NCBI RefSeq assembly: GCF_003555545.1 | Contig: NZ_CP032157.1 | Span: forward strand, 4,220,546 to 4,284,545 | Reading direction: 5' to 3' | Source: Paraflavitalea soli | GTDB lineage: Bacteria; Bacteroidota; Bacteroidia; Chitinophagales; Chitinophagaceae | DNA length: 64,000 nucleotides | Shown here: positions 34,469-53,492 of the stretch, piece after piece | How the letters are laid out: every line of letters starts with the position of its first letter | Position numbering within the stretch: the first letter of the stretch is position 1 | The notes under the pieces: model-generated | Told to the model about the DNA's origin: nothing | Database searches by the model: none | Seen by the model: the letters and a program-made list of their open reading frames with translations, nothing else | Translations under genes and position numbers: made by a program

Positions 34469-34744
34469 ATGACAACGACTACCTTACTTTACTTCGGAAA
34501 AGCAATTTGTACCATTGTAGGCTGGGCAGGATCAATAGCCTATCTCCTGGGTTATCTCCTGCTTACCATGAAGAAACTGAAACCCGACAGCAAAACTTAT
34601 CATGTACTGAATGTGGCAGGCGCCATAGGCCTTACGATCAATGCCATTCTTTTACAGGACTTCCCCAATATAGCGGTCAATGTAGCCTGGGGCGTCATAG
34701 CCGTAGTGGCCATCTGGTCTATTACGCGACGGAAACAAAGTTGA
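34469..34744 (+). CDS. CBU_0592-like small membrane protein
   Basis: A 91-residue protein with three helices. GWAGSIAYLLGYLLLTMKKLKPDSKTYHVLNVAGAIGLTINAI is the pattern of the CBU_0592-like family, with the conserved Asn near the second helix. The 3' end overlaps the convergent TetR gene by 23 bp. Biological role unknown. Confidence 0.75.
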   Translation: MTTTTLLYFGKAICTIVGWAGSIAYLLGYLLLTMKKLKPDSKTYHVLNVAGAIGLTINAILLQDFPNIAVNVAWGVIAVVAIWSITRRKQS

Positions 34745-35327
34745 GCAGCGCCAGTGCCTGGTTTTTATATTGCGCCAGTTTTACCTGGTATTCTTTCTTG
34801 TCCGTAACGAGGCTTAGATAATAATAAGCGCCATCCACCATTACGAATATAAGGTCTGCTGTCACCGCAGGGTCTTCTATCTCCAGCAGCCCTTGTCTTT
34901 TACATTCGCCGATCAGGACAGCCAGGTTCAGCCGGAGCGTATCCAGCAGTTTTTTATATTTCTCTTTGATCGTCTTATTGCGGAAGGCAAGCGCATAACA
35001 GCTATAGGAAACACTGTCATCAAACAACGTATTCCACTTCTGCGAAAAGATATTATCGATCACCTTTAGTAAGGCCGTTTCAGCACTCTCCTCTGATTCT
35101 TTGGGTAATTTATAAATAAGCAGGTATTTATCCAGGATGTATTCGATCAGCCCATACACCAGCGCTTCCCTGGTCTCAAAATAATGCATGACCAGGCTGG
35201 GATTAATATCGATAACGGCAGCGGTTTTAGCGACCGATGCATTCTCCAGACCTTCTTTTTTAGCCAGTTTATAAAAGGCCTTGATGATCTCCCGCTGGCG
35301 CTCTTCCTTCAGGCTTTTTCTTCCCAT
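34722..35327 (-). CDS. TetR/AcrR-family regulator, divergent from a SusCD operon
   Basis: A 201-residue protein from the ATG at 35327. The N-terminal helix-turn-helix is REIIKAFYKLAKKEGLENASVAKTAAVIDINPSLVMHYFETREALV, as in TetR proteins. The C-terminal ~145 residues form a ligand/dimer domain that is not diagnostic. Upstream lies a perfect 26-bp palindrome between it and the SusC gene, so it is probably the direct repressor of that operon. The longer start at 35420 is rejected because a TAnnTTTG box lies in between. Confidence 0.9.
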   Translation of the reverse strand: MGRKSLKEERQREIIKAFYKLAKKEGLENASVAKTAAVIDINPSLVMHYFETREALVYGLIEYILDKYLLIYKLPKESEESAETALLKVIDNIFSQKWNTLFDDSVSYSCYALAFRNKTIKEKYKKLLDTLRLNLAVLIGECKRQGLLEIEDPAVTADLIFVMVDGAYYYLSLVTDKKEYQVKLAQYKNQALALLNFVSVA

Positions 35328-35356
35328 AAAAGTTGTGTAGTTGGTTTTGTAGCTGA

Positions 35357-35364
35357 CAAATATA
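35357..35364 (-). promoter_or_regulatory. TAtaTTTG -7 box for tetR
   Basis: The minus strand reads TATATTTG 30 bp upstream of the ATG at 35327. Confidence 0.55.
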
Positions 35365-35471
35365 GGCACGCAAACGATTGTTAACGTATGGATAACAACA
35401 AAATAAATAAATAATTCCACTACCGGCGCCCGGATTAAGGAATTGTAAAGTTTTTGTTAGTAAATTAATAA

Positions 35472-35497
35472 ATTAATTGAATGATCATTCAATTAAT
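35472..35497. promoter_or_regulatory. Perfect 26-bp palindrome, candidate TetR operator
   Basis: ATTAATTGAATGA (35472-35484) is followed without spacer by its exact reverse complement (35485-35497). The core TTGAATGATCATTCAA resembles known TetR-family operators. It lies 145 bp from the tetR ATG and 93 bp from the SusC ATG. A near-consensus -7 box CATATTTG for SusC follows at 35520-35527. Confidence 0.8.
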
Positions 35498-35589
35498 CTA
35501 TGCCGGAACTTAATAGTTGCATATTTGTGACTGAATTCCCGGCAGGGATCAAAGACGATATTTTTTATTCCCAAAACATCATTTCAACC

Positions 35590-38500
35590 ATGAAAAAAGC
35601 TGCTTCACTTGCGATCCTTTTTTTCGTGCTTTGTGCTACTGGTCTTGCCCAGAATATTACGGTAAGAGGCCATGTCAGGTCGGGCACAGACAGCACCGTT
35701 ATTACCATGGCGTCTGTCGTTGTGAAAGGCGCCTCAAAAGGTACCACCACCAATGCGGAAGGCTTATTCACGATCTCTGCAGCACCCAATGCCGTGCTGG
35801 TCTTTTCTTCCCTTGGATTTGTTCAGCAGGAGATTGCCCTCAACGGCCGGTCAACGATTGATCTCTACCTGCAGCAATCAGAAGGCACCCAATTGAATGA
35901 GGTAGTGGTTACTACCGCGCTGGGTATCAAAAAACGCCAACAGGCATTGGGCTACTCCGTGCAGGAAGTGAGCGGCGAAACAATGGCCAAAGTAAAGTCG
36001 GCCACCGCAGTAGGCGCCCTCACCGGCAAAGTGGCAGGCCTGAATGTACTGAACACCACCGACCTCTTTCAAAATCCCGGTATCTCCCTGCGTGGCAGAA
36101 CACCATTGATCGTTATTGACGGCATTCCCGATCCCAATGCAGACCCCTATAAGCTCAATGCCGATGATATTGAAAGCATCAGCGTATTGAAGGGCACCGC
36201 CGCCGGTGCCTTGTATGGAGCCCTGGGTGTTAACGGCGCCATATTATATACCACCAAAAAAGGGAAAAAAGGAAAACTGAATGTGGAAGTCAATTCTTCT
36301 ACCATGTTCCAAACCGGCTACACCAAAGTGCCCAAGGTGCAAACCCAATATGGAAATGGCGATGCCGGCAAGTATGCCTACGTAAACGGCTCCGGCAATG
36401 GTACCGAAGGCGGTGGCTGGATATGGGGACCCAAACTCGACCAGCGCGATCCGACCACGCCAAGTGGCTTTTATGAGACCACCCAATACAACAGCCCTGT
36501 AGATCCCAATACGGGTAAACTGGTTCCTTTGCCCTGGGTGTCCAGGGGTCGGGATAATATCAAAAACTATTTCCGCACCGGTATCCTGTCTACCAATAGC
36601 GTGTCCGCATCCATAGGAACCGACAAAGGTTCTTTCCGCGTATCCGCTTCCCATATTAACCAAAAGGGAGTAGTGCCCAATACAGGCGTAAATAACTCCT
36701 CGTTCTCCATAGGTGGTAATTATATGCTCACATCAAAACTGAGTGTAGATGCCAAACTTACCTTCAACAAAGAGTACAGCAACAACTACCCCACTGTTGG
36801 TTATGGTCCGCCCAATATCCTGTACAACCTGTTACTGTGGATCGGCCCCGACATCGATATCCGCGACCTGAAGAAATACTGGCTGCCCGGCAAGGAAGGT
36901 TTACAACAGCGCAATTATAATTTGTCGTGGTACAACAACCCTTACTTTGTAGCCAATGAACTGCTCAACGGATACAAGCGCGATAACAATTTCGGCCAGG
37001 TGTCCTTTGATTACCAGTTCAACAAAGACTTCTCTGCCAAACTGCGTACCGGCTTCAACCAGTTTGCCACCTTCAAGGATGTGAAGGAACCCTATAGTTA
37101 TATAGCCTATGACTATATTTCAAAAGGCAATTATGCCACCACCCAGGCCAATTATTTTGATCTGACCACCGACCTGATCTTGAATTACAAACACGAGTTT
37201 AGCGACAAGTTCAACCTGTCTGTCACAGCAGGCGGCGCCAATACCTACAGGAATGAAAAATCGGTGTATGCTTCTACCGACGGACTTACCATTCCGGGCT
37301 TCTACAACCTCACCAATTCCATTAACCCCGCTGTGACCTCCAACTACCTTCGGGAACGCAGAACAGCCAGCGCTTATGGTATGGTGGACATCGAGACCCT
37401 CGGTTTCCTGTACCTGAATTTTACCGGCCGCTACGACAAGACCTCCACGCTGCCCGTAAAGAACAATGGTTACTTCTATCCCTCCGCAGGTGTATCCGCT
37501 GTGTTATCCGATGTACTGAAAATGCCATCAGCAGTTTCCTTCCTCAAACTGCGCGCTTCCTGGGCTAAGGTGAATACTGGTTTCATTGGTGATGGAGGCG
37601 ATCCGTATGCACATATTACTACCTATTCAATTGGCAACAAATGGAACAATGTGCCTTCCCTCGCATGGCCCACCACCGCTATATCACCCGACCTGGTGCC
37701 TGCTACTGTACAATCCGGTGAATACGGTATCGTAGCTTCTTTCCTCAAGAACCGCATCAGTGTGGACGCTACCTTTTTCCGGAACCGCGATTATAACAAC
37801 TTTGTAAACGTACCTCAATCACAAAGCAGCGGCATCACCTCTGTCTTAAAGAATGCCAATGAGTATATCCGCCGTGGATGGGAATTTGTAGTAAGCGGCG
37901 TACCCGTGAAAAACAAACGTTTCAGGTGGGAAACAGCCATCAACTTCAGCAGCGTGCACCGCTGGTTGAAAGATGCAACCGACAGCCCCGATGGTTATAT
38001 TGGTAATATCAAGGAAGGCGACCGTACAGACAGGATATTTATATCCGCCGCCCGTACACCCGATGGCCAGGCTATTTATAACTCCAATGGTATGCAGGCC
38101 ACTTCGCCTTATGCCCAGTATTTCGGCAATGACGATCCCGATTGGATCTATGGATGGCAAAATACATTCAGCTATAAGAACCTCTCCCTTACCTTCTCCG
38201 TGGATGGCCGCTTAGGCGGACTGATCTACTCCACTACCAACCAAAAAATGTGGTGGGGCGGCACAGCACCCGGCACGGTAACACAATACCGTGATGATGC
38301 CAATGCCGGTAAAAACACTTACGTTGGACCAGGAGTAGTGGTAGAATCAGGTACGGTTCAATATGACAGTCACGGCAATATCACTTCCGATACCAGGAAG
38401 TTTGCCCCCAACACCACACCTGTTAACTACATCAGCTTTATGCAAACCACCAGCGGGCAGATGCTGAACAACTATTTTTATTACAGCGGCACCTATTTGA

Positions 38501-38700
38501 AGATGCGCGAGGTGGTGTTGACCTACAACCTGCCTGCCAAAATAACCCGTGGCATTTTCAGCGCGGCCTCTGTATCCTTCATTGGCAATAACCTGTTCTT
38601 ACTGGCGAAGCTGCCCAATGTAGACCCCGATGCAGAAAGCGACAATTTACAAACGCCGTCCATGCGCAGCATGGGTGTAAACATCAATCTTAAATTTTAA
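35590..38700 (+). CDS. SusC/RagA-family TonB-dependent outer-membrane transporter
   Basis: A 1036-residue protein from the ATG at 35590. Signal peptide ends near GLAQ; a CarboxypepD_reg-like domain (~22-105) precedes NEVVVTTALGI, the SusC linker before the plug. The plug has TAVGALTGKVAGLNVLNT and LIVIDGIPDPNADPYKLNADDIESISVLKG, a compact version. The beta-barrel ends in MGVNINLKF with the aromatic C-terminal residue needed for barrel assembly. It carries ligand captured by SusD across the outer membrane, powered by TonB. It is the first gene of a three-gene operon. Confidence 0.95.
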   Translation: MKKAASLAILFFVLCATGLAQNITVRGHVRSGTDSTVITMASVVVKGASKGTTTNAEGLFTISAAPNAVLVFSSLGFVQQEIALNGRSTIDLYLQQSEGTQLNEVVVTTALGIKKRQQALGYSVQEVSGETMAKVKSATAVGALTGKVAGLNVLNTTDLFQNPGISLRGRTPLIVIDGIPDPNADPYKLNADDIESISVLKGTAAGALYGALGVNGAILYTTKKGKKGKLNVEVNSSTMFQTGYTKVPKVQTQYGNGDAGKYAYVNGSGNGTEGGGWIWGPKLDQRDPTTPSGFYETTQYNSPVDPNTGKLVPLPWVSRGRDNIKNYFRTGILSTNSVSASIGTDKGSFRVSASHINQKGVVPNTGVNNSSFSIGGNYMLTSKLSVDAKLTFNKEYSNNYPTVGYGPPNILYNLLLWIGPDIDIRDLKKYWLPGKEGLQQRNYNLSWYNNPYFVANELLNGYKRDNNFGQVSFDYQFNKDFSAKLRTGFNQFATFKDVKEPYSYIAYDYISKGNYATTQANYFDLTTDLILNYKHEFSDKFNLSVTAGGANTYRNEKSVYASTDGLTIPGFYNLTNSINPAVTSNYLRERRTASAYGMVDIETLGFLYLNFTGRYDKTSTLPVKNNGYFYPSAGVSAVLSDVLKMPSAVSFLKLRASWAKVNTGFIGDGGDPYAHITTYSIGNKWNNVPSLAWPTTAISPDLVPATVQSGEYGIVASFLKNRISVDATFFRNRDYNNFVNVPQSQSSGITSVLKNANEYIRRGWEFVVSGVPVKNKRFRWETAINFSSVHRWLKDATDSPDGYIGNIKEGDRTDRIFISAARTPDGQAIYNSNGMQATSPYAQYFGNDDPDWIYGWQNTFSYKNLSLTFSVDGRLGGLIYSTTNQKMWWGGTAPGTVTQYRDDANAGKNTYVGPGVVVESGTVQYDSHGNITSDTRKFAPNTTPVNYISFMQTTSGQMLNNYFYYSGTYLKMREVVLTYNLPAKITRGIFSAASVSFIGNNLFLLAKLPNVDPDAESDNLQTPSMRSMGVNINLKF

Positions 38701-38736
38701 TGCCTCGCCATACAGAAGCATACAAAACAAACTAAG

Positions 38737-40215
38737 ATGAAACACATATATATTATCGCATCCATTGCAGTGGCGATATCCCTCCCTGCCTGCAAAAAGT
38801 TTGAGGACTTCCAGGAGAATCCCAACAACCCTACCGTGGCCGACCCGGCCCTGCTGCTGCCCAGAGTAGAACAACAGGCCTTCAATATTATTTCAGCCGA
38901 TGCAGCCCTTGCCAGCCGCTACCTGGTATACACACAGGGAGCCAGTAATGCCCAGTATTATGGCTGGCAAAGAGGCGGCATGAGTTATGGCAATATCAGT
39001 CAGGTGGTGAAGATGGAACAGGAAGCAGTCCGGATCGGCAAACCCAACTATCGTTATATCGGCAAGTTCCTGAAAGCCCATTTTATCCTGGAAATGACAC
39101 AGCGCCTGGGCGATATCCCGTATTCAAAAATGATGCAGTCAATGATGAACAGCACCTTTGATTCTGCTTCTACACGCCCCCTCTACGACAACCAGGAGGC
39201 GATCTATAAAGGCGTACTGGATGAATTAAAACTGGCCAGCGACTCTTTAACAGCCGACCAGTTGGCTATTAATGGTGACCTGATATACAATGGCAGTGTT
39301 GACAAATGGAAGAAGCTGATCAATGCTTATACCCTGCGCGTATTGATGAGCCTGTCGAAGAAGGAAAGCAGTACCGTGCTGAACATTAAGCAACGGTTCA
39401 ACGACATTGTATCCAACCCCGCTAAATATCCTTTATTAGGTTCCAATGCCGATAATGGTCAATTGAAGTATTATAATATCACCGGTAACCAGTACCCTTA
39501 TTATAATAGCAATTCCATGAAGACGGACTATTACCTCGACAGTTCATTTGTAAAGGTGCTGAAAGACCTGAAGGATCCCCGGTTATTTGTATATGGCCTG
39601 CCTGCCACCGCTACCGGTTTGCCTGAAGGAAATTTCGATGCCTATGATGGATTGGTAGGAAGTCAGGCATTGGCCTACAATACTGCCAAAAGAGGTCAGG
39701 GCAAAGCTTCACAGATCAACAAGCGGTATGCTTATGAAGCAATCAACGAACCCAGCGTATTGATGAGCTATTCCGAGCAGCAGTTCATATTGGCCGAAGC
39801 CGTTACAAGAGGCTGGATCACCGGTAACGCCGATGCCTGGTACAAGCAAGGCATTGAAGCAGCCCTGGTATTTTCGAACTTTAATAATACCTATGCAAGC
39901 AGTGCCATTGTTAATTACCTGGCACAGCCGGCAATCACCCTGCAGCCAGCTACTGCCATTCAGCAGATCATTACCCAGAAATACATCAGCCAGTTCATGA
40001 ACACAGGCTGGCAGGCCTTTTTCGAACAACGCCGCACTGGTTTTCCTGTTTTTGAAACCGCCGGGCCCGGTGTATTAAATGGCGGTAAGATCCCTAAAAG
40101 ATGGATGTATCCCACCGACGAGTTCAACAACAACCGGGTGAATGTAGAGAATGCTGTGAAAAGCCAGTTTCCGGGTGGCGACAACATCAATGAGGTGATG
40201 TGGCTGATCAAATAA
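38737..40215 (+). CDS. SusD/RagB-family surface lipoprotein (SusD-like_2 type)
   Basis: A 492-residue protein with lipobox SLPAC (Cys19). FEDFQENPNNPTVADPALLLPRV near the N-terminus and LAEAVTRGW...AEAWYKQGIEAAL-like helices are of the SusD-like_2 group, with the C-terminal FEQRRTGFPVF and YPTDEFNNNRVNVENA. It forms the lid of the SusC transporter. It starts 36 bp after SusC and overlaps the frame of the next gene only by alternative start. Confidence 0.94.
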   Translation: MKHIYIIASIAVAISLPACKKFEDFQENPNNPTVADPALLLPRVEQQAFNIISADAALASRYLVYTQGASNAQYYGWQRGGMSYGNISQVVKMEQEAVRIGKPNYRYIGKFLKAHFILEMTQRLGDIPYSKMMQSMMNSTFDSASTRPLYDNQEAIYKGVLDELKLASDSLTADQLAINGDLIYNGSVDKWKKLINAYTLRVLMSLSKKESSTVLNIKQRFNDIVSNPAKYPLLGSNADNGQLKYYNITGNQYPYYNSNSMKTDYYLDSSFVKVLKDLKDPRLFVYGLPATATGLPEGNFDAYDGLVGSQALAYNTAKRGQGKASQINKRYAYEAINEPSVLMSYSEQQFILAEAVTRGWITGNADAWYKQGIEAALVFSNFNNTYASSAIVNYLAQPAITLQPATAIQQIITQKYISQFMNTGWQAFFEQRRTGFPVFETAGPGVLNGGKIPKRWMYPTDEFNNNRVNVENAVKSQFPGGDNINEVMWLIK

Positions 40216-40247
40216 AAATATTACTTTCAATTATGAACGGTTTAATT

Positions 40248-41483
40248 ATGAAGAAATACCAGCTTGTACTCTTGTTAATGACCATCGGATCGGGCGTAAT
40301 GGCCCAGGGTAAAAAAGTGTTGTTTGTGATCGTTGATGGCATTGCCGCCGATGTGATCGAAAACCAGCCTACCCCATTCCTGAAGTCAATAGCAAAAGTG
40401 GGAGGATTTACCCGCGCACATGTAGGCGGAGAAAGAGGCGGTTACTCACAAACCCCCACTATCTCTGCCGTAGGCTACAACTCCTTGCTTACCGGCACCT
40501 GGGTCAACAAACACAATGTGTGGGACAATGATATTGCTGCGCCCAACTACCATTACTGGACCATCTTCCGTTTTTTTAAGCAACAATTCCCGCAAAAGAA
40601 AACTGCTGTTTTCTCCAGCTGGCTCGACAACAGGACCAAACTGGTGGGCGAGAACATGCCGGAAACCGGCAACCTCACGCTCACACACCATTTCGACGGG
40701 CTTGAACTGGATACCGCACAATATCCGCACGACAAAAAACGTGATTACATGCATCAGATAGATGAAGCCGTAGTGAACAATGCCGTCGATTACATCAAAA
40801 AAGAAGCCCCCGATCTTTCCTGGGTATACCTGGAATACACAGACGACATGGGGCATGCCCATGGCGACAGTCCGGAATATTTCAGGGCCGTAGACCTGAT
40901 GGACAAGCAAATGGGTCGGTTATGGGAAGCCATACAATACCGGCAAAAGCAGTTTAAAGAAGACTGGGTAATTTATATTACCACCGATCATGGCCGGGAT
41001 GCCAAAACAGGCAAAGGCCACGGTGGTCAGTCAGATCGCGAGCGCAGCACCTGGATCGTTACCAATGCCAAAGGATTGAATGATTATTTCAAGTCCGGCA
41101 ATCCAGGCATTGTAGATATTATGCCCTCCATGGCCCGTTTCCTGGGTTTGCAAATTCCACGTGCCCAACTGATGGAAGTGGACGGCATTCCTTTAACCGG
41201 CACTATCTCCGCCACCGATGCACAAGCTGCATTGGACAATGGAAAACTGGAAGTCACCTGGAAAGCCACTTCTACCAAAGGCAAGGCAAAGATCTGGGTA
41301 TCCACCACCAATGCTTTTAAAGAAGGCAAGGAAGACAAGTACCAGTTACTGGCCACCGTTCCTGTAGCCGCTCAAAAAGCCGTGATCGACGTAAGCGCTT
41401 TGCCTTCCGGTTTCTACAAAATAGTCATCGAGGCAGATCACAACACCCTCAACAGATGGGTGGTGGTGAAGCCAAAGAAATAA
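40248..41483 (+). CDS. Exported type I phosphodiesterase/nucleotide pyrophosphatase-like phosphatase
   Basis: A 411-residue protein from Met at 40248, with a signal ending VMAQ. Alkaline-phosphatase-superfamily metal motifs are VIVDG (D30), YTDDMGHAHGD and TTDHGRD. By ungapped comparison with the PTKTFPN loop of type I phosphodiesterases, the nucleophile is Ser73 in PTISAVGY rather than Thr. The last ~85 residues (LEVTWKATSTKGKAKIWVST to the end) form a separate beta-sandwich-like domain. It is the third gene of the SusCD operon, so it probably removes phosphate or a phosphodiester from an imported or surface-bound ligand. Starts at 40200 and 40233 are less likely. Confidence 0.88.
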   Translation: MKKYQLVLLLMTIGSGVMAQGKKVLFVIVDGIAADVIENQPTPFLKSIAKVGGFTRAHVGGERGGYSQTPTISAVGYNSLLTGTWVNKHNVWDNDIAAPNYHYWTIFRFFKQQFPQKKTAVFSSWLDNRTKLVGENMPETGNLTLTHHFDGLELDTAQYPHDKKRDYMHQIDEAVVNNAVDYIKKEAPDLSWVYLEYTDDMGHAHGDSPEYFRAVDLMDKQMGRLWEAIQYRQKQFKEDWVIYITTDHGRDAKTGKGHGGQSDRERSTWIVTNAKGLNDYFKSGNPGIVDIMPSMARFLGLQIPRAQLMEVDGIPLTGTISATDAQAALDNGKLEVTWKATSTKGKAKIWVSTTNAFKEGKEDKYQLLATVPVAAQKAVIDVSALPSGFYKIVIEADHNTLNRWVVVKPKK

Positions 41484-41610: not shown

Positions 41611-42471
41611 TTACTTCTTCTGATACACCCGTACATAATCCACCTCAAACCGCTGCGGGAAATCCGTGTTGGAAGCATCACCCCCATTCATCCCGCCTAT
41701 CGCCAGGTTCAGCAGCATATAATGTGGCTGACGGAAGGGATTGAAACCACTGCCATCTTTATTGTTCAGCTTGTCCAGCGCTACTTGATTGAGCAGCACA
41801 TCATCCAGGAACAGCGCTATATGATCCGCTGTCCAGTCCATACGCCATACATGAAATTGGCTCGCCCATTTTTCACCACCCAATGAATCGATGGCAAAAA
41901 TATTGCTGAACCATTCCGCTTTGCGGTCGGGGCCCAGACAGGCAATATTGGCCAGCAGCTTGCCGCGGTAATATTCCATGATATCGATCTCTCCATTGCC
42001 GGGCCAGGGTTTATCATTGCCCAGCGTCCACCAGGCGGGCCAGATGCCTGCTTTGATGCTGATCCTGCCCCGCATTTCAAAGCGGCCATACAACCACGAT
42101 TGTTTGCCCCGCGTAAGCAGACAGGCAGCCGTATAGTCAATCGTAGGCCGGCTGCGCCGCCAATCCTTGCTGCCCTCCGTATACCGGGGATTAGGCTTTT
42201 GCTCACGCCGGGCCTCGATCACCAGCTGACCGTTCTTACACACTGCATTCTCCGGTTGGTACCATTGCCACTCTTCATTGCGCACAAAGCCTTTTTCATA
42301 GCCCCAGTTAGTGCTATCCGCAGCACCATTGTGGTTAAATTCATCTGCCCACACCAGCTGGTATCCATCCGCCGCATATTTGCCGGCCACCTTTTGCGTA
42401 TTACCACAACCCGCCATCGCCACAGGTAGCGCCGCAATAGCCAATATCTGAAATAGTTGCTTCAAGATCAA
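41611..42471 (-). CDS. Glycoside hydrolase family 16 lipoprotein
   Basis: A 286-residue protein with lipobox MAGC (Cys22). The GH16 active site is GEIDIMEYY with E161 as nucleophile, D163 as helper and E166 as acid/base. LVWADEFN starts the jelly-roll and AGIWPAWWTL precedes the active strand. GH16 enzymes cut beta-1,3/1,4-linked glucans or galactans (retaining mechanism). With neighbouring GH2 and GH43 genes, a beta-galactan substrate is plausible. It is the last gene of the operon. Confidence 0.94.
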   Translation of the reverse strand: MILKQLFQILAIAALPVAMAGCGNTQKVAGKYAADGYQLVWADEFNHNGAADSTNWGYEKGFVRNEEWQWYQPENAVCKNGQLVIEARREQKPNPRYTEGSKDWRRSRPTIDYTAACLLTRGKQSWLYGRFEMRGRISIKAGIWPAWWTLGNDKPWPGNGEIDIMEYYRGKLLANIACLGPDRKAEWFSNIFAIDSLGGEKWASQFHVWRMDWTADHIALFLDDVLLNQVALDKLNNKDGSGFNPFRQPHYMLLNLAIGGMNGGDASNTDFPQRFEVDYVRVYQKK

Positions 42472-42477
42472 ATAAGT

Positions 42478-45612
<3,135 letters not shown>

Positions 45613-45633
45613 TTATTTATTGCTGGTCTTTAA

Positions 45634-47652
45634 TTATTGCTTGCTATCACCTGCACCACCTGGTCGTGCAGCGGGTTTTCTTGCCGGGCTTTTGAGCCTT
45701 ACACCTTTATGCGTTGGTTGTACCTGCCTGATGCTCCCATCAGGGTTAAATTCCATTTTATCAATACATACCTCCCGGTTGTACCCCGCCGCTTTGCCCA
45801 GGTTGATGCCATTGGGATAGGAGAACCGGTGATACACAATATACCACTCATCTTTGCCAGGCACCTGGATCGTAGAATTGTGCCCCGTAGCATAAATACC
45901 CTGCGCCGTATCTTTGGCGATCACCAGGTTATTGGCCGGTACAGTGATTTTCCCAAGCGGGGCATCCGACCTGCCATACCGCACCCGGTAATCAGCATCA
46001 CGCGTATCATTTTCCGACCATAGGAAATAATAGACGCCCTTTCGGTACAGCACATGCGTCCCTTCCCGGAAGCTGCCGTCCGGTGTCAGTATTTGAGTAG
46101 TCCCCGGTTTTATGGAAACCATATCCTCATTCAGTTCTGCCCCCGCCATATAGCCATTGCCCCAGTACAGGTACGACTTGCCTGTCTTTGGATCTGTAAA
46201 CACATCCGGATCTATCTGCTGGCCGCCCTTCACCCCTTCCGGGCGCTGGTCAATAAGCGGTTTGCCCGCATCCACAAAAGGCCCCGTGGGAGCATCACTC
46301 ACCGCCACCCCTATTTTCTGTGCCGCCGTGAAATAATAAAAGTATTTATACTGGCCGTTGATCTTTTTTTCCGTGATCGTGGGTGCCCAGGCATTCCTGT
46401 TGCCCCACCGTACATCCCTGGGCAGGTCAAGGATCACCCCTTCGTCTTTCCATTGTACCAGGTCCGTTGAAGAAAAGGTTTTGAAATAAGTGCCCGACCA
46501 GCCTGTAAAACCATCACTGGTGGGATAGATATAATACTTCTTTGTCTTTTCCGAATACAGGATATCCGGATCAGCATACTTGCCATCCAGTACCGGGTTG
46601 TGCGCACCCTGGAGGCGCACACTGCCCCATTGGGCGTTCAGCCGGTCCGCCTCGGCAGCAGTAATCGAGATAATCGTACCGTGGCGCGGATGGAAATTCA
46701 TCGTTACTCCTTCATCTACTATCTTGAAATGTTCCAGGTCACTCGTTTTCGTAAACTGGTATTTTCCTTTCGTGTACACATCGTACATCAAAATATAATC
46801 GTTGCTGTTGTTGAGTTTGAACACACCGGCCCCTTCCACCGGGTCCGTCGTTTGCTGTATATATTCATCACGCAGCACATAACCTGCTGTGAGTTTGTCA
46901 GACACAGCCACCTTCAGGCCCGCCGTACGGGCTCCCTCCGTCTTAAAGAACAGGTAATACTTACCGTCTTTGTGCACAATGTCGCCATCGATACAAGCCC
47001 CGTTGCCCGGCTCCACAAACAATTGCGTTGGTTCCGTGGCGAGGTCTGTAAAGTCTTTATTGGCATAGGCATAATAGATCTTATCCGGATCATGCCCGTG
47101 TTTCATGGAAAAATAGATCAGGTATCGGTCCGTTGCTGCATCATAAATGGTTTGCGGCGCCCATACGCGCAGCAGGCTGTCATGGCCGGCAAATCGTTGT
47201 TGGATATTTACTACCGCCGAGGTCCAGTGAATGAGGTCCGTCGATTTGAGCAATACCATGGCCCGGTTGGAGTTCCAGCCTTTGGCCGAAACCATATCCG
47301 TAGCAACCAGGTAAAAAGTTTTGTTATCCGCCCCACGCAGTATATGCGGATCACGGACACCGCCGGTAGAACTAATAGCAGAGGAAGCGATGATCGGTTG
47401 ATCACCATTCAGCGCCTGGTAGTGATAACCGTCTTTGCTGAGCGCAAAGCGGATCTGTTCTTCGCTTTTGTCATTGCCTGTAAAATAAGCAAAGAGGTAG
47501 GCCTCGTAGGGAGCTTCATGAGCGGCCTTTTTAGAGGGCCCCTTGTTGTTGGACTGCGCCAGTACTGCTGTCCCCAACAACAGGGCGGTACAAAGACATA
47601 CTATACTTCTCAGGACCATGATAATAAAGGGTAGACTTTTTTTATAGAACAC
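45634..47652 (-). CDS. Bimodular glycoside hydrolase, two family 43-like five-bladed propellers
   Basis: A 672-residue exported protein (signal through VLAQ). Propeller 1 (~48-340) shows D101 in GGVRDPHIL, D224 in CIDGDIVHKDG and E273 in DPVEGAG. Propeller 2 (~350-655) shows D361 in YADPDIL, D481 in IDPDVF and E530 in FREGTHV. Both thus retain the GH43 triad of base, pKa modulator and acid, although the first is more divergent. A short Pro/Arg/Lys-rich tail follows. The family commonly removes arabinofuranosyl or galactosyl units by inversion. The start may instead be Met12 (47619). Confidence 0.9.
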   Translation of the reverse strand: MFYKKSLPFIIMVLRSIVCLCTALLLGTAVLAQSNNKGPSKKAAHEAPYEAYLFAYFTGNDKSEEQIRFALSKDGYHYQALNGDQPIIASSAISSTGGVRDPHILRGADNKTFYLVATDMVSAKGWNSNRAMVLLKSTDLIHWTSAVVNIQQRFAGHDSLLRVWAPQTIYDAATDRYLIYFSMKHGHDPDKIYYAYANKDFTDLATEPTQLFVEPGNGACIDGDIVHKDGKYYLFFKTEGARTAGLKVAVSDKLTAGYVLRDEYIQQTTDPVEGAGVFKLNNSNDYILMYDVYTKGKYQFTKTSDLEHFKIVDEGVTMNFHPRHGTIISITAAEADRLNAQWGSVRLQGAHNPVLDGKYADPDILYSEKTKKYYIYPTSDGFTGWSGTYFKTFSSTDLVQWKDEGVILDLPRDVRWGNRNAWAPTITEKKINGQYKYFYYFTAAQKIGVAVSDAPTGPFVDAGKPLIDQRPEGVKGGQQIDPDVFTDPKTGKSYLYWGNGYMAGAELNEDMVSIKPGTTQILTPDGSFREGTHVLYRKGVYYFLWSENDTRDADYRVRYGRSDAPLGKITVPANNLVIAKDTAQGIYATGHNSTIQVPGKDEWYIVYHRFSYPNGINLGKAAGYNREVCIDKMEFNPDGSIRQVQPTHKGVRLKSPARKPAARPGGAGDSKQ

Positions 47653-47710
47653 TATCAGAAAAAATACCAGCCTGCCAAATGACAGGCTGGTACATTATTA
47701 ACTACTTCTT

Positions 47711-47837
47711 TGTCATTTCGAACGAAGCAAAGCGGAGTGAGAGAGCTGCTATCGAAGCAAACGCCTTCGAAGCAAACCCCTTCGAAGCAAAGGATTGCCG
47801 ACTGCCGATTGCCGATTGCCGATTGCCGACTGCCGAC
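47711..47837 (-). repeat. Composite intergenic repeat, copy 4 (inverted) with 15-bp and 7-bp tandem arrays
   Basis: In plus-strand order: TGTCATTTCGAACGAAGC and GCGGAGTGAGAG (the core, inverted), then about three 15-bp units based on TTCGAAGCAAACGCC (47751-47793), then six heptamers of ATTGCCG/ACTGCCG (47794-47837). It lies in the SusD-GH43 gap within the PUL operon, so it is transcribed. Confidence 0.75.
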
Positions 47838-47845
47838 ATCTTCGA

Positions 47846-49756
47846 CTACTGCTTCGACTCATCAGCTACCGCTTCCTGCCAGGTCTTCCACATTTCTACA
47901 GTAGCGTCGTACCCATTGTAACCGGGATTCTGGTGCAGTTTAGCGCCATTATTGGCATTGATCGCATTCTGTTGCGGAATCGGCCAGTTGATATTGTGCG
48001 GTGCAAGAGTATAAGAACGACCCTTCACCACCACTTTACCCTTATTGTAATAGTTATTATAAGCCGTTATGCGATTGAACCAATAGCTCTTTTGCTCCAG
48101 CGTGGGTACTGTATACGTGTTGCCCCACTCGTCCGCCTTGCCGCTCAGCGCCAGGCAATACGATACACGGCTCATTTCTGTAAAACGCCATTCTTCCATA
48201 TTCAACTCCCGCGCACGCTCGTCCATGATCTCGCCAATGCCAACCGTGGTATACAGCTGCGTACAGCCGGCACGTTGACGTACCTTATTCACATCCGCTA
48301 CAGCTTGATCAGCCTGCCCGTTGTAAAACTTGGCTTCAGCGCGCAACAGGTAGGTTTCTGCCAGGCGGAAACAATAGAGGTCGCCGGCGCCGCCACGGTG
48401 GTTCACTTCAGTCTGAGACCCTGTTTCAAGAGGATCTTCAATATAATATTTGTAGTGCGGCCAGTCAAACCAGTTACGAACCGTATCCGCGCACAGGATC
48501 TTTGCACCATCATACAACCGCAGGTTCTTGCCATACCAGGCAGGCACTGTTACATCGTTATACTTGAGCGAATCCATCCTTGCCCAGTTGCCCACCGTGC
48601 TGTTGTGGCGCAGGTCACCCGCATCATTTACACCGTTCACAAACCATACATCATTGGTCGCATAATAAGTAGGACGAATATGCGCAATACCCCTGCCTAT
48701 CCCGCGCATATAATCCGTAGCCTCCCGATAGTTGCCACTGTTCTTAGCTATATATTTTATAGCCTGCTGTCCACCCGGTGTAGTCGTTTGGTTATTGTCC
48801 AGGAAGGGCAGCCAGTTACGCATCGAGTTCATCTTCACCATCGACTGCGTTCCATTTCGGTTAGGCATCACCAATATCACTTCTTTGTTGGCTGCGATCG
48901 CCTTGTTTTCCGGGCGATGCAGGTCCCAGATCACATTGCGCGTGATGGGCCATACAGCCGGATAAGGATTGATGAAGGAACCGAAATTGTTTGTCATCAA
49001 CGAATAACCTGAACTGTTGATCAGGATATCAGCCTGATCGATCGCTTTCTGCCACTGACCCGTTGCCAGGTAACACTTGATCAGCAACTGGCGGCAGGCC
49101 CCTTTGTTGACCAGGCCAATGAGGTTGGCGCTCGTCTGCGCAGGCACATATTCCACTGCTTTTTCCATATCCAACGTGATCATTTTCAGTATCTCTTCAC
49201 GTGGCGTACTCTTATAGTTCAGCTTGGGCGAAGCCAGGATCTTCGTTACCAGCGGCACATCTTTAAACTCGAAAGCAAGCGCCAGGTATCGGTAGGCGCG
49301 ATGGAATAGCGCACGGCCAATATAGCCTACTTTGGTAACCGAATCGAGGTCCGGCACTTTGTCAATATACGTCAGGATCGTATTGGCATATTTAATACCG
49401 TTGTACGTCTCATTCCAGAAATAATAGTTGCGTTCTGCATAATCATTAGGCGTCAACCGCGTAGCAATGTCTGCATAGATATTGCCATCGTCCGTCTTAC
49501 TGGCCACTGCCACATCCGAAAACATATATTCCGTACTGATGGGCAAACCCAGATCCTGGTACGAAAAGTACGTCCAGTAAGAACGCAGGTGCCGGTCACA
49601 GGTAGCCATGGCTGCATCCAGACCACCTTTTGTATTGAATGTTTCATCCGGAATGTAGAATGACAACGGATCCGGTTGCAGGTAAGATTTGCTACAGGAA
49701 GACAGCCCCGCCATCACACCTGAGAACAGTATTATTTTAAATAGATTCTTTTTCAT
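47846..49756 (-). CDS. SusD/RagB-family surface lipoprotein
   Basis: A 636-residue protein with lipobox LSSC (Cys21). The RagB-type TPR segments are clear: YIGRALFHRAYRYLALAFEFKDVPLV, YCFRLAETYLLRAEAKFYNGQADQAVADVNKVRQRAG and a C-terminal ERARELNMEEWRFTEMSRV. It forms the glycan-binding lid of the SusC encoded 12 bp upstream. Confidence 0.95.
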   Translation of the reverse strand: MKKNLFKIILFSGVMAGLSSCSKSYLQPDPLSFYIPDETFNTKGGLDAAMATCDRHLRSYWTYFSYQDLGLPISTEYMFSDVAVASKTDDGNIYADIATRLTPNDYAERNYYFWNETYNGIKYANTILTYIDKVPDLDSVTKVGYIGRALFHRAYRYLALAFEFKDVPLVTKILASPKLNYKSTPREEILKMITLDMEKAVEYVPAQTSANLIGLVNKGACRQLLIKCYLATGQWQKAIDQADILINSSGYSLMTNNFGSFINPYPAVWPITRNVIWDLHRPENKAIAANKEVILVMPNRNGTQSMVKMNSMRNWLPFLDNNQTTTPGGQQAIKYIAKNSGNYREATDYMRGIGRGIAHIRPTYYATNDVWFVNGVNDAGDLRHNSTVGNWARMDSLKYNDVTVPAWYGKNLRLYDGAKILCADTVRNWFDWPHYKYYIEDPLETGSQTEVNHRGGAGDLYCFRLAETYLLRAEAKFYNGQADQAVADVNKVRQRAGCTQLYTTVGIGEIMDERARELNMEEWRFTEMSRVSYCLALSGKADEWGNTYTVPTLEQKSYWFNRITAYNNYYNKGKVVVKGRSYTLAPHNINWPIPQQNAINANNGAKLHQNPGYNGYDATVEMWKTWQEAVADESKQ

Positions 49757-49768
49757 TGCTCAAATCGT

Positions 49769-52700
49769 TTAGAAGGTTGCATTTAATCCAAAAGTAAAGA
49801 TCCTGGGGGCCATACCCGACCGGAAGATCTGTCCCGCATCGCCGCTCGTATTGAAGGTTTCCATATCGCCATAGTGCCAATCTTTCTCCTTCGTCCAAAG
49901 CGCTACGTTACGCACACTGGCAAATACCTTTATTTTCTCAACGCCGACCTTTGACAACAGTTTTTTATCCAGCGTGTATCCCACCGTTACGTTTTCCAGG
50001 CGGATGAAGCTACGGTCATACAATTTGCCGGGTGCATTTGAACCCGTACCTACAGGACCTCTCGCATCCAAACGGGCATAGCTATTCGTAGGATTATCCA
50101 GCGTCCAGTATTCTTTTTTCCATTGGTTCGCCTGGTTCGTCACCAGCGAAGTACCATTGTCCTGGTTCAGGTAAATACCCACCAGGCTCTTATGGCCCCA
50201 ATAAGAATACATGTTGAACGAGAAGTTGAAATTCTTATACGTGAAATCATTCCTCATCGACCACATGATCGGAGGCGCTGTTTGTCCCAGGAACTCCTTA
50301 TCGTTGTCATTATAATAAGACGAGAGAGCTGGGTTGGTCGCATTTACTTTGTCATCAGCCGTGTAGTTGTTGGCTACTTTGGGATCACCGGGGCGTTGGT
50401 TATAGATAGCCGCTTCTGCTACTTCGTTTTTCTGCCAGATACCAGTTACCCGGTAGTTCCAGATCGTGCTGATCGGCTGACCAATAAACCAGTTATTAGG
50501 TATTACATCCCTTTCTCTGGTAGAGATCACATTGCCCTGACCATCCAGGATGTCCTGGTACTCATAGTACAGGTGCTTGATCGTGTTCTTGTATTTGGAA
50601 AAACCAAAAGTCGTATTCCAGGAGAAATCGCGGTTCTTGATGTTCACCGTATTGATGCTCAGCTCAAAACCCCTGTTGTCCACTTTACCAAGGTTCGTAG
50701 TGATGCTGGAAAAACCAGTGAAATCAGGCAGCGTACGGTTCATGATCATCGCCACCGTAGGCGTAATATAATAATCGATGCTACCCGTGATGCGGTCGTT
50801 CAGGAATCCGAAATCGAGGCCCACGTTGAATGACTCTGTTTTTTCCCAGGTCAGGTTGTTGTTCGCCAACCGGTTCATAAACAGGTACAGGAATTCTTTC
50901 AGGTTACCGCCATTATCGAGGTAGCCCATTGTACCGCCGCCACCAACAGTCAGGTTGGCCACCGCAGTATAAGGATCCGCCAATGAGCGGTTACCGTTCT
51001 GTCCCCACGATGCACGCAGTTTACCCGTGCTCATAGGCTCCCATTTGAAGAAGCTTTCATTCGAGAACGTCCAGGCACCTGCAATGGAAAAGAAGTTGGC
51101 GCGGGGATTGGAATTACCAAAGGCAGAATAACCATCCCGGCGGAAAGAGGCCGTCAGCATATAGCGGTCATCGAATGAATAGAACAACCGCGCCAGCATA
51201 CCATCCGCCGTTTCCTTCGTGTCTTCCGAATCAAAAGTACTTCTTGCCTTGTCCCCGTTCTGCGTTTCATGCAGTCCAAGCGCGTCACTCGGCAGGATAT
51301 TGCGTGCTTCTATCCGGTCCTTCCAGGATTGACGGTTCTCCGCTTCCTGTACCAGCGTCACCGCTACACGGTGCTTCTTGGCAAAAGTGTGTTCCCAGTT
51401 GATCGTATTGTTGAGCGACCAGTCGAAACGTTGCGTCTGCTCGCGGTTCACCAGGCCATTGTTCGCTGTCCAGTCAGGATGCCTGGCCGATTCGAAATAA
51501 CGGTCACGGAATGTTTGGTACCGCGGAGAAGCGTTGAAAGAGTAAGTAATATTGAAAGGCAGTTTTACCTTGGCGTTCAGGATAGCATTGAATACCGTGT
51601 ATCCTTTATCCAGGTCCATATACTGGCGGTCAAAGTCGTAGTTATAGCCCAGGTTATTCGTACTGCCATCACCTTGTGGATGCCAGGCCAGCCTGCCATC
51701 GGGCAGGTAATAGTTGGCAAAAGGTGAATTGCGCAGCGATTGTTTTTGCCAATCTACCGCCAGGTTGCCATCCGTACGGTTCTGGAAGTTGATGTTACCG
51801 CCTACTTCCAGCCATTTGGCGATCTTGCCTTCCACCTTCATATTGGCGCGGATAGCCTTATAATCATCCCCGCGGATCGGGCCCTGGTTGCTGAGGTAAC
51901 CGAGCGACATATAATAGTTCATATTGTCGCTGGCGCCGGAGGCACTGAGGTTATAATCCTGGTTGATGCCCGTACGGAAAGAATGATCCTGCCAGTTGTA
52001 GGTCTTACCCGCCACATAATTGTTCAATGTTACATCCGACATCGCCAGGCGCTTGCCATAGATCGAAACATCATTGTCAGTAGGCAGGTTGGTACTATAG
52101 GCTCTCCACTGGTCGATCGTAATGCCATATTTGGCCAGGTTCTCAGGTGTTGGGTTTTCAAAGTAACCCGGCCTTTTATTAGTACCCCAGCCAGATAACG
52201 GAACCTGGTAGGCTTCATATTGACCCGTCGCTGCGTTTACCCCAAAGGTGGCCGCCTTATACCAGTCTTCCCGGTACTGAATATAACCTTCAGGACCAAA
52301 TACGTCCCGGTTACCGGCCTTGGTAGAGATACCCAGGTTGCTCGTGAAGTTGATCCTCGGTTTACCTTTCTGCCCTCTCTTTGTAGTAATGATCAGTACA
52401 CCATTGGCCGATTTGGCGCCATATACCGCAGCCGCCGAGGCATCTTTCAACACGTCAATCTGCGCAATATCATCCGGGTTGATCTCCGACAGTTCCCCGT
52501 AGAAGATCATACCATCCAGTACCAGCAACGGGTCATTGTGCCCGGCATCCGTATATACCGAACGCTGACCGCGGATCTGGATAGAGCCGCCGCCCTTACC
52601 GTTGGGATCGAGGCCTACGCTCAGACCGGGTGTTCCCCGCACGATATCCTGTACCGTATTTGGGTTCTGGTCCGCAATCTTATCCGGACGTATCTGCGTA

Positions 52701-53110
52701 ATGGCGCCGGTAAGGTCCTTTTTGCGGGCCTGGCCGTAACCGATCACCACCACTTCGTTCAGCGATTGGTTCGTTACCTCCAGCCGCAGCGATAGGTCGC
52801 CCGTAGCGGGAACAGTAACAGTTTGCGTAACATAACCGGTGAACGAGAAGGAAAGCTTGCTGTTGACAGCAGCTTCCAGTGTAAAATGGCCCTTGTCATT
52901 GGTAGATGTTCCCGTTGTTTTACCGGCTAATGTGACAGAAACACCCTGCAGCGGTAGGTTGGTAGAAGCATCTGTGACAGTGCCGGAAACCTGCCGGTCC
53001 GTTTGTGCCAGCATCGTCAGTGGCGCTAAAAACAAGGCTGCCAGGACCAGGGCAATCATACCGGGTCTTGGTTTAACAAGCGTTTGCATAAAGCATTTAG
53101 TTTTTTTCAA
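49769..53110 (-). CDS. SusC/RagA-family TonB-dependent outer-membrane transporter
   Basis: A 1113-residue protein. Signal to about residue 36 (MLAQ), then the CarboxypepD_reg-like domain (VSGTVTDASTNLPLQGVSVTLAGKTTGTSTNDKGHF...), then LNEVVVIGYGQARKKDLTGAI and a plug with QDIVRGTPGLSVGLDP and PDDIAQIDVLKDASAAAVYGAKSANGVLIITTKRG. The barrel ends IFTFGLNATF with a C-terminal Phe. First gene of the leftward PUL operon. Confidence 0.96.
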   Translation of the reverse strand: MKKTKCFMQTLVKPRPGMIALVLAALFLAPLTMLAQTDRQVSGTVTDASTNLPLQGVSVTLAGKTTGTSTNDKGHFTLEAAVNSKLSFSFTGYVTQTVTVPATGDLSLRLEVTNQSLNEVVVIGYGQARKKDLTGAITQIRPDKIADQNPNTVQDIVRGTPGLSVGLDPNGKGGGSIQIRGQRSVYTDAGHNDPLLVLDGMIFYGELSEINPDDIAQIDVLKDASAAAVYGAKSANGVLIITTKRGQKGKPRINFTSNLGISTKAGNRDVFGPEGYIQYREDWYKAATFGVNAATGQYEAYQVPLSGWGTNKRPGYFENPTPENLAKYGITIDQWRAYSTNLPTDNDVSIYGKRLAMSDVTLNNYVAGKTYNWQDHSFRTGINQDYNLSASGASDNMNYYMSLGYLSNQGPIRGDDYKAIRANMKVEGKIAKWLEVGGNINFQNRTDGNLAVDWQKQSLRNSPFANYYLPDGRLAWHPQGDGSTNNLGYNYDFDRQYMDLDKGYTVFNAILNAKVKLPFNITYSFNASPRYQTFRDRYFESARHPDWTANNGLVNREQTQRFDWSLNNTINWEHTFAKKHRVAVTLVQEAENRQSWKDRIEARNILPSDALGLHETQNGDKARSTFDSEDTKETADGMLARLFYSFDDRYMLTASFRRDGYSAFGNSNPRANFFSIAGAWTFSNESFFKWEPMSTGKLRASWGQNGNRSLADPYTAVANLTVGGGGTMGYLDNGGNLKEFLYLFMNRLANNNLTWEKTESFNVGLDFGFLNDRITGSIDYYITPTVAMIMNRTLPDFTGFSSITTNLGKVDNRGFELSINTVNIKNRDFSWNTTFGFSKYKNTIKHLYYEYQDILDGQGNVISTRERDVIPNNWFIGQPISTIWNYRVTGIWQKNEVAEAAIYNQRPGDPKVANNYTADDKVNATNPALSSYYNDNDKEFLGQTAPPIMWSMRNDFTYKNFNFSFNMYSYWGHKSLVGIYLNQDNGTSLVTNQANQWKKEYWTLDNPTNSYARLDARGPVGTGSNAPGKLYDRSFIRLENVTVGYTLDKKLLSKVGVEKIKVFASVRNVALWTKEKDWHYGDMETFNTSGDAGQIFRSGMAPRIFTFGLNATF

Positions 53111-53492
53111 AATGGTAATTACAGTTTTCGTTTGTTGACCGGATCGTTGCTATCATGGCAGGTCCGGCAGAGAATATACTTATATAAAAGAAAAAAAGAT
53201 TTGACCAATTGATCAAGGAGGAAGAAAAGGTGAGTAAAAAACGGGTTGTTGATAAAGGCGCTGGGGCCGATCCAATATGTTTGATCTTTTCATATACGCA
53301 AGCGATTTAGGGGTGTCCCGAAGAGCATAGGTGTAGATGCGATTCAATCGTTAAATCGATCACAATTTAATAGCAACCAAACGCGAATATAGGGGGGCTA
53401 TTTTGATAAAAAGGGGGCATTCTTGCTTGTTGACATACTTCAAAACTACGTCATTATATTATAAAATATTGACAATCAATAAATAGGATCTT
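53111..53492 (-). other. Intergenic leader between the hybrid sensor and SusC, no gene seen
   Basis: 382 bp of AT-rich sequence. One -7-like box TAGTTTTG lies at 53441-53448 on the minus strand, which would give a leader of about 330 nt. An imperfect palindrome TTGACCAATTGATCAA is at 53201-53216. Binding sites for the hybrid sensor are expected in this region but cannot be identified by eye. Confidence 0.45.
53441..53448 (-). promoter_or_regulatory. Possible TAgtTTTG -7 box for the PUL SusC
   Basis: The only TAnnTTTG match in the SusC upstream region on the minus strand. A TTG occurs 24 bp further upstream, longer than the usual spacer. Confidence 0.35.

Follow-up and report, generated by a model that had tools for sequence, protein, structure and literature searches.

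The PUS loci of Flavobacterium johnsoniae, as presented in the main text of PMC8115612, encode SusCD-like complexes together with phosphodiesterases or phosphatases and are induced upon phosphate depletion. PUSI comprises PF00149 and PF16670 enzymes, PUSII includes a FecR-like regulator, and PhoBR is also named there; the words 'TetR' and 'repressor' are absent from that main text. Here we describe a PUS-like locus from a 64,000-nucleotide stretch of the Paraflavitalea soli genome (contig NZ_CP032157.1, positions 4,220,546 to 4,284,545; hereafter the window), in which a gene for a TetR-family regulator diverges from an operon for SusC, SusD and an exported phosphodiesterase, with a perfect 26-bp palindrome between them. 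As in the PUS, the SusCD operon is accompanied by an exported phosphodiesterase or phosphomonoesterase and not by carbohydrate enzymes, which holds for 31 of the 36 readable loci with an orthologous TetR gene, the window among them, and the PF00149 phosphoesterase of PUSI recurs in variant loci. Whereas the PUS were named for their induction upon phosphate depletion (PMC8115612), a TetR protein and an operator are coupled to the operon here. By analogy the locus would work like a PUS, and membership in that group would hinge on its response to phosphate. SusCD loci governed by hybrid two-component systems (HTCS) or extracytoplasmic function (ECF) sigma factors likewise consist of a SusCD-led operon with a regulator encoded alongside; where they rely on a membrane sensor or a sigma/anti-sigma pair, the present locus features a one-component regulator and a DNA palindrome. 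BetI, a choline-sensing TetR repressor, resembles the regulator of the window in type and, weakly, in the C-terminal half; however, the window protein falls far below the equivalog cut-offs and its C-terminal domain is TetR_C_37. In the sequence comparisons below, the operator is conserved and coupled to TetR and SusC while different phosphoesterases interchange beside them, and the locus appears to be a real conserved regulatory unit, the dedicated TetR and operator being a regulatory variant on a PUS-like locus.

We consider it probable that the TetR protein is a repressor, relieved by a phosphodiester or its product, of a phosphoester uptake operon. We infer that a dedicated TetR dimer binds the palindrome, adjacent to the -33 region of the SusC promoter and probably extending into it, and that the bound protein would keep the SusC-SusD-phosphodiesterase operon off rather than activate it. 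A phosphodiester substrate or a breakdown product would enter the cytoplasm, bind TetR and relieve the repression. SusD would capture the phosphorylated compound for import by SusC, and the exported phosphodiesterase would cleave it, giving phosphate and/or the alcohol moiety. The underlying gene layout, which the initial annotation had read from the DNA alone, was confirmed by coordinates and domain matches:

34722 to 35327, minus strand: TetR-family regulator, 201 amino acids (Pfam TetR_C_37), start set at the conserved MGR
35472 to 35497, unstranded: operator, a perfect 26-bp palindrome ATTAATTGAATGA/TCATTCAATTAAT, with a conserved 18-bp core at 35476 to 35493
35590 to 38700, plus strand: SusC/RagA-type TonB-dependent outer-membrane transporter, 1036 amino acids (TIGR04056, CarbopepD_reg_2, Plug)
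38737 to 40215, plus strand: SusD-type surface lipoprotein, 492 amino acids (PF12771, SusD-like_2)
40248 to 41483, plus strand: exported type I phosphodiesterase/nucleotide pyrophosphatase-like enzyme of the alkaline phosphatase superfamily (PF01663)

The regulator matches PF18665 (TetR_C_37) with 142 bits (cut-off 27), and PF00440 (TetR_N) is not among its matches at E 0.001. Its AlphaFold model has a predicted local distance difference test score (pLDDT) of 87, and the best PDB matches are TetR structures. Orthologs are 42-81% identical and share an invariant N-terminal MGR. Within its own genome the protein has no close paralog, the next matches having 25% and 32% identity (E 5e-5 and 3e-4). 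In a profile search SusC reached 491 bits against TIGR04056 (cut-off 368), along with the CarbopepD_reg_2 and Plug domains; its start was placed at the signal peptide, at 35590, the mechanical open reading frame opening earlier, at 35500. SusD scores 239 bits against PF12771 and has, by eye, a lipobox-like LPAC at its N-terminus.

TetR orthologs were found in 21 of 244 genomes of the family (E 1e-15) and, own genome counted, in 5 of 395 genomes drawn from the whole phylum (E 1e-30). A scan of named genomes yielded 25 loci, including representatives of Terrimonas, Niastella, Puia, Filimonas, Paraflavitalea, Pseudobacter, Chitinophaga, Flavihumibacter, Pedobacter and Cellulophaga. These 25, 12 from other family genomes, 2 from the phylum draw and the window make up a set of 40 TetR loci; 8 of the 21 family genomes were already among the named ones. 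The 40 are not all independent: a single metagenome-assembled genome contributes both L034 and L052, and L041 is nearly identical to L042. Sites were scored by their matches to ATTGAAYGNNCRTTCAAT (ATTGAAyGnnCrTTCAAT), which has 16 fixed positions, and called at 14 or more. The initial annotation had proposed looking for the palindrome ahead of SusC genes next to TetR in related genomes, and such a site is present in 38 of the 40 loci: 35 of the 37 relatives L029-L065, L096 (score 15), L097 (14) and the window (16). At both misses, L046 (Pedobacter) and the truncated L064, the corresponding intergenic region contains a palindrome that has diverged. Among 36 sites picked by operator score, the ATTGAA and TTCAAT halves are near-invariant, with A+T flanks on the outside and variation at the two central bases. 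Perfect symmetry is not conserved, as most relatives have quasi-palindromes with a free 2-bp centre. Even in Cellulophaga, which belongs to another family and whose TetR is 42-44% identical, the site takes the form ATTAATTGAACrTTCATTCAATTwAT; the operon order there is phosphodiesterase-SusC-SusD. The consensus was built from the same loci in which it was then counted; independent of it are the TetR-negative genomes, 16 phosphodiesterase loci, L096 and L097.

These independent sets bear on the specificity of the site. A zero-mismatch pattern occurs in 12 of the 244 family genomes, namely in 11 of the 21 TetR-positive and 1 of the 223 TetR-negative genomes (Fisher p ~1e-12), and the lone TetR-negative match (L090) is located inside an open reading frame; the reversed control pattern was matched in 1 of the 244. 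The phosphodiesterase is commoner than TetR, being present in 60 of the 244 genomes (E 1e-90). None of 16 phosphodiesterase loci without adjacent TetR has an operator at the threshold (best score 13); these loci, from 15 genomes, were hand-picked from the 60, and three (L130, L136, L139) lie in genomes with a TetR elsewhere. Since the operator is found at 38 of 40 TetR loci but at none of these 16, it travels with the TetR locus rather than the enzyme. As to the gene that it serves, an indication comes from L056 (G145), a single case in a fragmented assembly, where TetR has lost its divergent arrangement with SusC and the small membrane protein described below lies between the two: the operator (11531) is found ~220 bp ahead of the SusC frame (11768) and not ahead of TetR. 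Cross-genome comparison, specificity controls and this rearrangement together strongly support control by TetR through the palindrome, as initially suggested, and the palindrome is very likely the TetR operator.

In the window the palindrome is the sole match at up to three mismatches, and none was found in 100 dinucleotide shuffles. Across the 8.44-Mb genome, its 16-bp core TTGAATGATCATTCAA occurs once exactly and at five places when up to two mismatches are allowed, versus one for the reversed control pattern; of the four inexact places, the single one inspected (L002) falls within a long open frame. The half-site pattern ATTGAANNNNNNTTCAAT has two mismatch-free places in the genome, one being the operator; the only other zero-mismatch ATTGAA-N6-TTCAAT is at G000:C1:6663743-6663760 (L067). 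Judging from the inspected sites, the operon operator would be the one clear TetR target in the own genome. A second perfect operator, remote from the TetR locus, occurs in another genome (L089 8237, G085), ending 18 bp before the frame of an exported-looking 192-amino-acid protein, with a gene resembling phospholipase C (by eye) 3.4 kb off on the opposite strand. Neither this site nor the one inside the open frame of L090 (G060) points to a clear second target.

The position of the palindrome relative to the promoters was read against the Bacteroidota -7 consensus, TAnnTTTG, and two candidate boxes were assigned in the window:

35520 to 35527, plus strand: candidate -7 box CATATTTG of the SusC promoter, resembling TAnnTTTG
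35357 to 35364, minus strand: candidate -7 box TATATTTG of the TetR gene, read from the sequence, ~108 bp from the palindrome

No good -33 partner was seen for TATATTTG. In 18 of 36 loci a relaxed box, [TC]AnnTT[TC]G, begins 26-30 bp past the operator core, compared with 0.34 on average and at most 3 in mononucleotide shuffles; the other 5-bp bins hold at most 6 (0-4 bp) and 5 (15-19 bp, the Cellulophaga loci among them). As the range was picked after viewing the data and the loci are related, this spacing counts as support and not as proof. Five loci (L041, L042, L043, L055, L060) carry two operator sites 92-241 bp apart, which could serve both promoters.

The phosphoesterases in the SusCD operons of the 31 loci are of four kinds; four loci cut by contig ends (L034, L036, L052, L064) were left out of this count. 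The PF01663 phosphodiesterase is found in 17 loci, the window included (relatives assigned by 48-78% identity), and a calcineurin-like PF00149 enzyme in 8 (L041-L043, L045, L053, L065, L096, L097; those of L042, L043 and L053 assigned by 82-98% identity to scanned proteins). Three loci (L059, L060, L063) have a phospholipase C that matches the phosphocholine-specific model TIGR03396 with 751-759 bits (cut-off 580), L059 encoding a PF03372 enzyme in addition, and three (L032, L040, L051) combine a propeller protein with a PF04185 phosphoesterase. In a control, none of 19 genes following other SusD genes of the own genome matched a phosphoesterase family. The 20 control operons were hand-picked from high-scoring SusD matches in this one genome, one lacking a gene on the same strand within 400 bp; among the 19 genes, one is another SusC and two are without a Pfam match, so that an unknown enzyme is possible there. 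Scan thresholds were E 1e-5 for the controls and E 1e-3 for most variant enzymes. The phosphoester theme of the TetR-operator loci, as judged from gene content, is strong.

On the TetR tree (35 rows, without L034, L036, L052, L064 and L051), the enzyme label, including 'none', needs 10 changes at the fewest, the least possible number being 4 and the mean of shuffled labels 16.7. Supported branches require the calcineurin-like label to have changed at least twice, and the tree leaves many of its deeper forks open. The import of a phosphorylated ligand, which the initial annotation had put forward, is supported because phosphoesterases of different kinds substitute beside the same TetR and operator. 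Its further suggestion, that this ligand might act as the inducer, is plausible. Calcineurin-like and PF01663 enzymes also occur together at single loci (L134, L140, L096), which suggests that they act in one pathway. Further peculiarities of individual loci are a 128-amino-acid gene between SusD and phosphoesterase in L041-L043, and a SusC in two open frames in L044 and L059, due to a frameshift or an assembly error.

The window phosphodiesterase matches PF01663 with 73.8 bits (cut-off 23) and has a signal peptide but, by eye, no lipobox. It does not match TIGR03396 in the profile search, unlike the enzymes of the variant loci L059, L060 and L063. Eight residues, D30, S73, D199, D200, H203, D247, H248 and H258, are invariant in 12 homologs, the Asp and His residues being candidate metal ligands. 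The nucleotide pyrophosphatase/phosphodiesterases (NPPs) have a Thr nucleophile with a characteristic Asn. In the alignment Ser73 is located near the nucleophile and Gly-Tyr takes the place of the NPP Asn-His, in a region where the predicted model is of low confidence. A fold search gave generic matches to the alkaline phosphatase superfamily; human ENPP7 with phosphocholine, at fold rank 5, was not used as evidence, given these generic matches and a model that is uncertain around the active site.

Hints at what the regulator may sense come in part from the residues that its orthologs keep. W98, N99, F102, D103, D104, Y108, Y111, D165, Y168 and Y170 are invariant in 23 aligned TetR orthologs, which stem from phosphodiesterase, calcineurin-like, propeller or no-enzyme loci and include no phospholipase C locus. 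A cationic group, choline for instance, would fit such a set of acidic and aromatic residues. The first 12 rows of a TetR fold search include a Saccharomonospora protein with trimethylamine (4nel), benzamidine (4jnn) and choline (4kwa); many TetR structures score about equally in that search, which makes 4kwa and 4nel a lead and not a test. Profiles of BetI all remain under their cut-offs, with 25.6 bits for PF13977 (27), 36.5 for TIGR03384 (201.3) and 37.6 for another BetI model (118). Among the ligands named in the initial annotation, nucleotide sugars and phospho-glycans received no specific support, whereas for phosphocholine-type head groups there is some, from the phospholipase C in three loci and the weak kinship of TetR to choline-binding regulators. 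A phospholipid head-group ester or its product, of the phosphocholine/choline or ethanolamine type, is our best guess, albeit a weakly supported one.

Several observations weigh against a head-group-responsive repressor of phosphoester uptake. No operon phosphoesterase is found in five of the 36 readable loci (L031, L046, L054, L056, L061). L031 has a phospholipase C gene two genes off on the opposite strand, and L046 an esterase on the opposite strand; in L054 and L056 no phosphoesterase adjoins SusCD, the sequence of L056 ending soon after. L061 (2746-3039, G008) retains TetR and operator before a 97-amino-acid SusC remnant, with unrelated genes after it, and a phosphodiesterase homolog of G008 is found on a different contig. 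TetR and SusC can also be uncoupled: in L054 TetR is 73% identical and SusC matches over the first 199 residues only, with 33% identity. As SusC shows ~30% identity, confined to the N-terminal part, in several loci, the transported compound may differ among them. At one mismatch the half-site pattern occurs at 67 genome places versus 12 for the reversed control, few of which were inspected, and TetR may have additional targets. The TetR profile, moreover, scores 3crj with 60 bits and the fatty acid metabolism regulator 3whb with 43, ahead of choline-bound 4kwa with 26. Lastly, in L057 the phosphodiesterase gene is directly followed by one for an e(P4)-family 5'-nucleotidase (TIGR01533, 284 bits, cut-off 216), and homologs of the latter, 62-81% identical, follow the phosphodiesterase in L128, L130 and L132, all without adjacent TetR. 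Such a neighbour suits nucleotides, or a sequential cleavage from diester to monoester to phosphate, and from these four loci nucleotides are a possible ligand.

The same four loci favour a nucleotide or dinucleotide salvage operon, in which the enzyme, as a nucleotide pyrophosphatase, would have NAD, FAD or nucleotide sugars as substrates, and a nucleoside or base would be the signal for TetR. The few solved relatives found for the phosphodiesterase are indeed NPPs, but the similarity is weak, both to a bacterial phosphodiesterase-nucleotide pyrophosphatase and to ENPP5, and the nucleophile region, PTISAVGYN, is unlike theirs. Such a scheme is also hard to reconcile with the three loci where this TetR and operator accompany a phosphocholine-specific phospholipase C. 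We regard salvage as rather unlikely. A similarly low chance is given to an ordinary phosphate-starvation operon under PhoBR that TetR merely fine-tunes. The F. johnsoniae precedent of SusCD with phosphodiesterases induced on phosphate depletion, as set out in the main text of PMC8115612, speaks for it. However, the conserved element ahead of SusC is the TetR operator, and loci lacking an adjacent TetR (L128, L134) have the same phosphodiesterase after SusC together with SusD and FecR-like genes (by eye).

TetR might instead activate the SusC promoter, or activate and repress it. In the 18 loci with a spaced box the operator core sits upstream of the -33 region and not over -7; in the window, the 18-bp core ends ~26 bp before the -7 box and abuts the core promoter without covering it, so that activation is geometrically possible, although we take repression through obstruction as the default. 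LuxR of Vibrio harveyi, a TetR-type protein, reportedly does both. Yet most TetR proteins repress, and some loci have palindromes extended to 26-32 bp, which run as far as the -33 region; we deem activation somewhat less likely still than the two preceding explanations. A chance palindrome, or one with another role such as a hairpin, is very improbable: although the element is A+T-rich and its perfect form is uncommon among relatives, its sequence and intergenic position are kept in 38 of the 40 loci and are specific to those bearing TetR. Relieved repression of a phosphoester uptake operon remains our preferred reading.

The surroundings of the operon contain a further, near-constant component:

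34469 to 34744, plus strand: small CBU_0592-family membrane protein (NF047864), tail to tail with TetR

It matches NF047864 with 49 bits (cut-off 25). At the level of open reading frames a homolog adjoins TetR in 29 of 35 loci, and tblastn adds five of the remaining six; this tail-to-tail partner is more constant than any single enzyme. In L129, where TetR is not adjacent, a CBU_0592-family homolog adjoins the phosphodiesterase. On the other side of the operon, a convergent carbohydrate locus (41611-57731) encodes GH16, GH2 beta-galactosidase and GH43 enzymes, SusD, SusC and an HTCS-type hybrid regulator. The absence of a glycoside hydrolase, noted in the initial annotation, accordingly holds for the operon itself and not for its vicinity.

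A tentative, though possible, extension is that TetR, operator and, usually, the CBU_0592-type protein form a portable sensing cassette for one phosphodiester breakdown product, most likely a cationic head group (choline, phosphocholine or ethanolamine), and that Bacteroidota repeatedly placed different SusCD pairs and phosphoesterases under it. A TetR-controlled SusCD operon was not found among the matches listed in a literature search that covered titles and the beginnings of abstracts, with subscription journals mostly outside; in the parts of PMC11381880 and PMC11300592 at hand, 'tetr' occurs only within 'tetramer' and a vector name. The accessible literature presents SusCD-based uptake of organic phosphorus as a reaction to phosphate starvation. 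With a conserved one-component switch, phosphoesters would be a nutrient that some Bacteroidota respond to as a signal, possibly a source of carbon or nitrogen as well as phosphorus. The 18-bp operator offers a handle for ligand screens and for finding more targets, and the replacement of enzymes under a constant regulator represents a natural experiment on what TetR senses. If the portable cassette exists, phospholipid scavenging in these bacteria would be triggered by the substrate and not by phosphate hunger.

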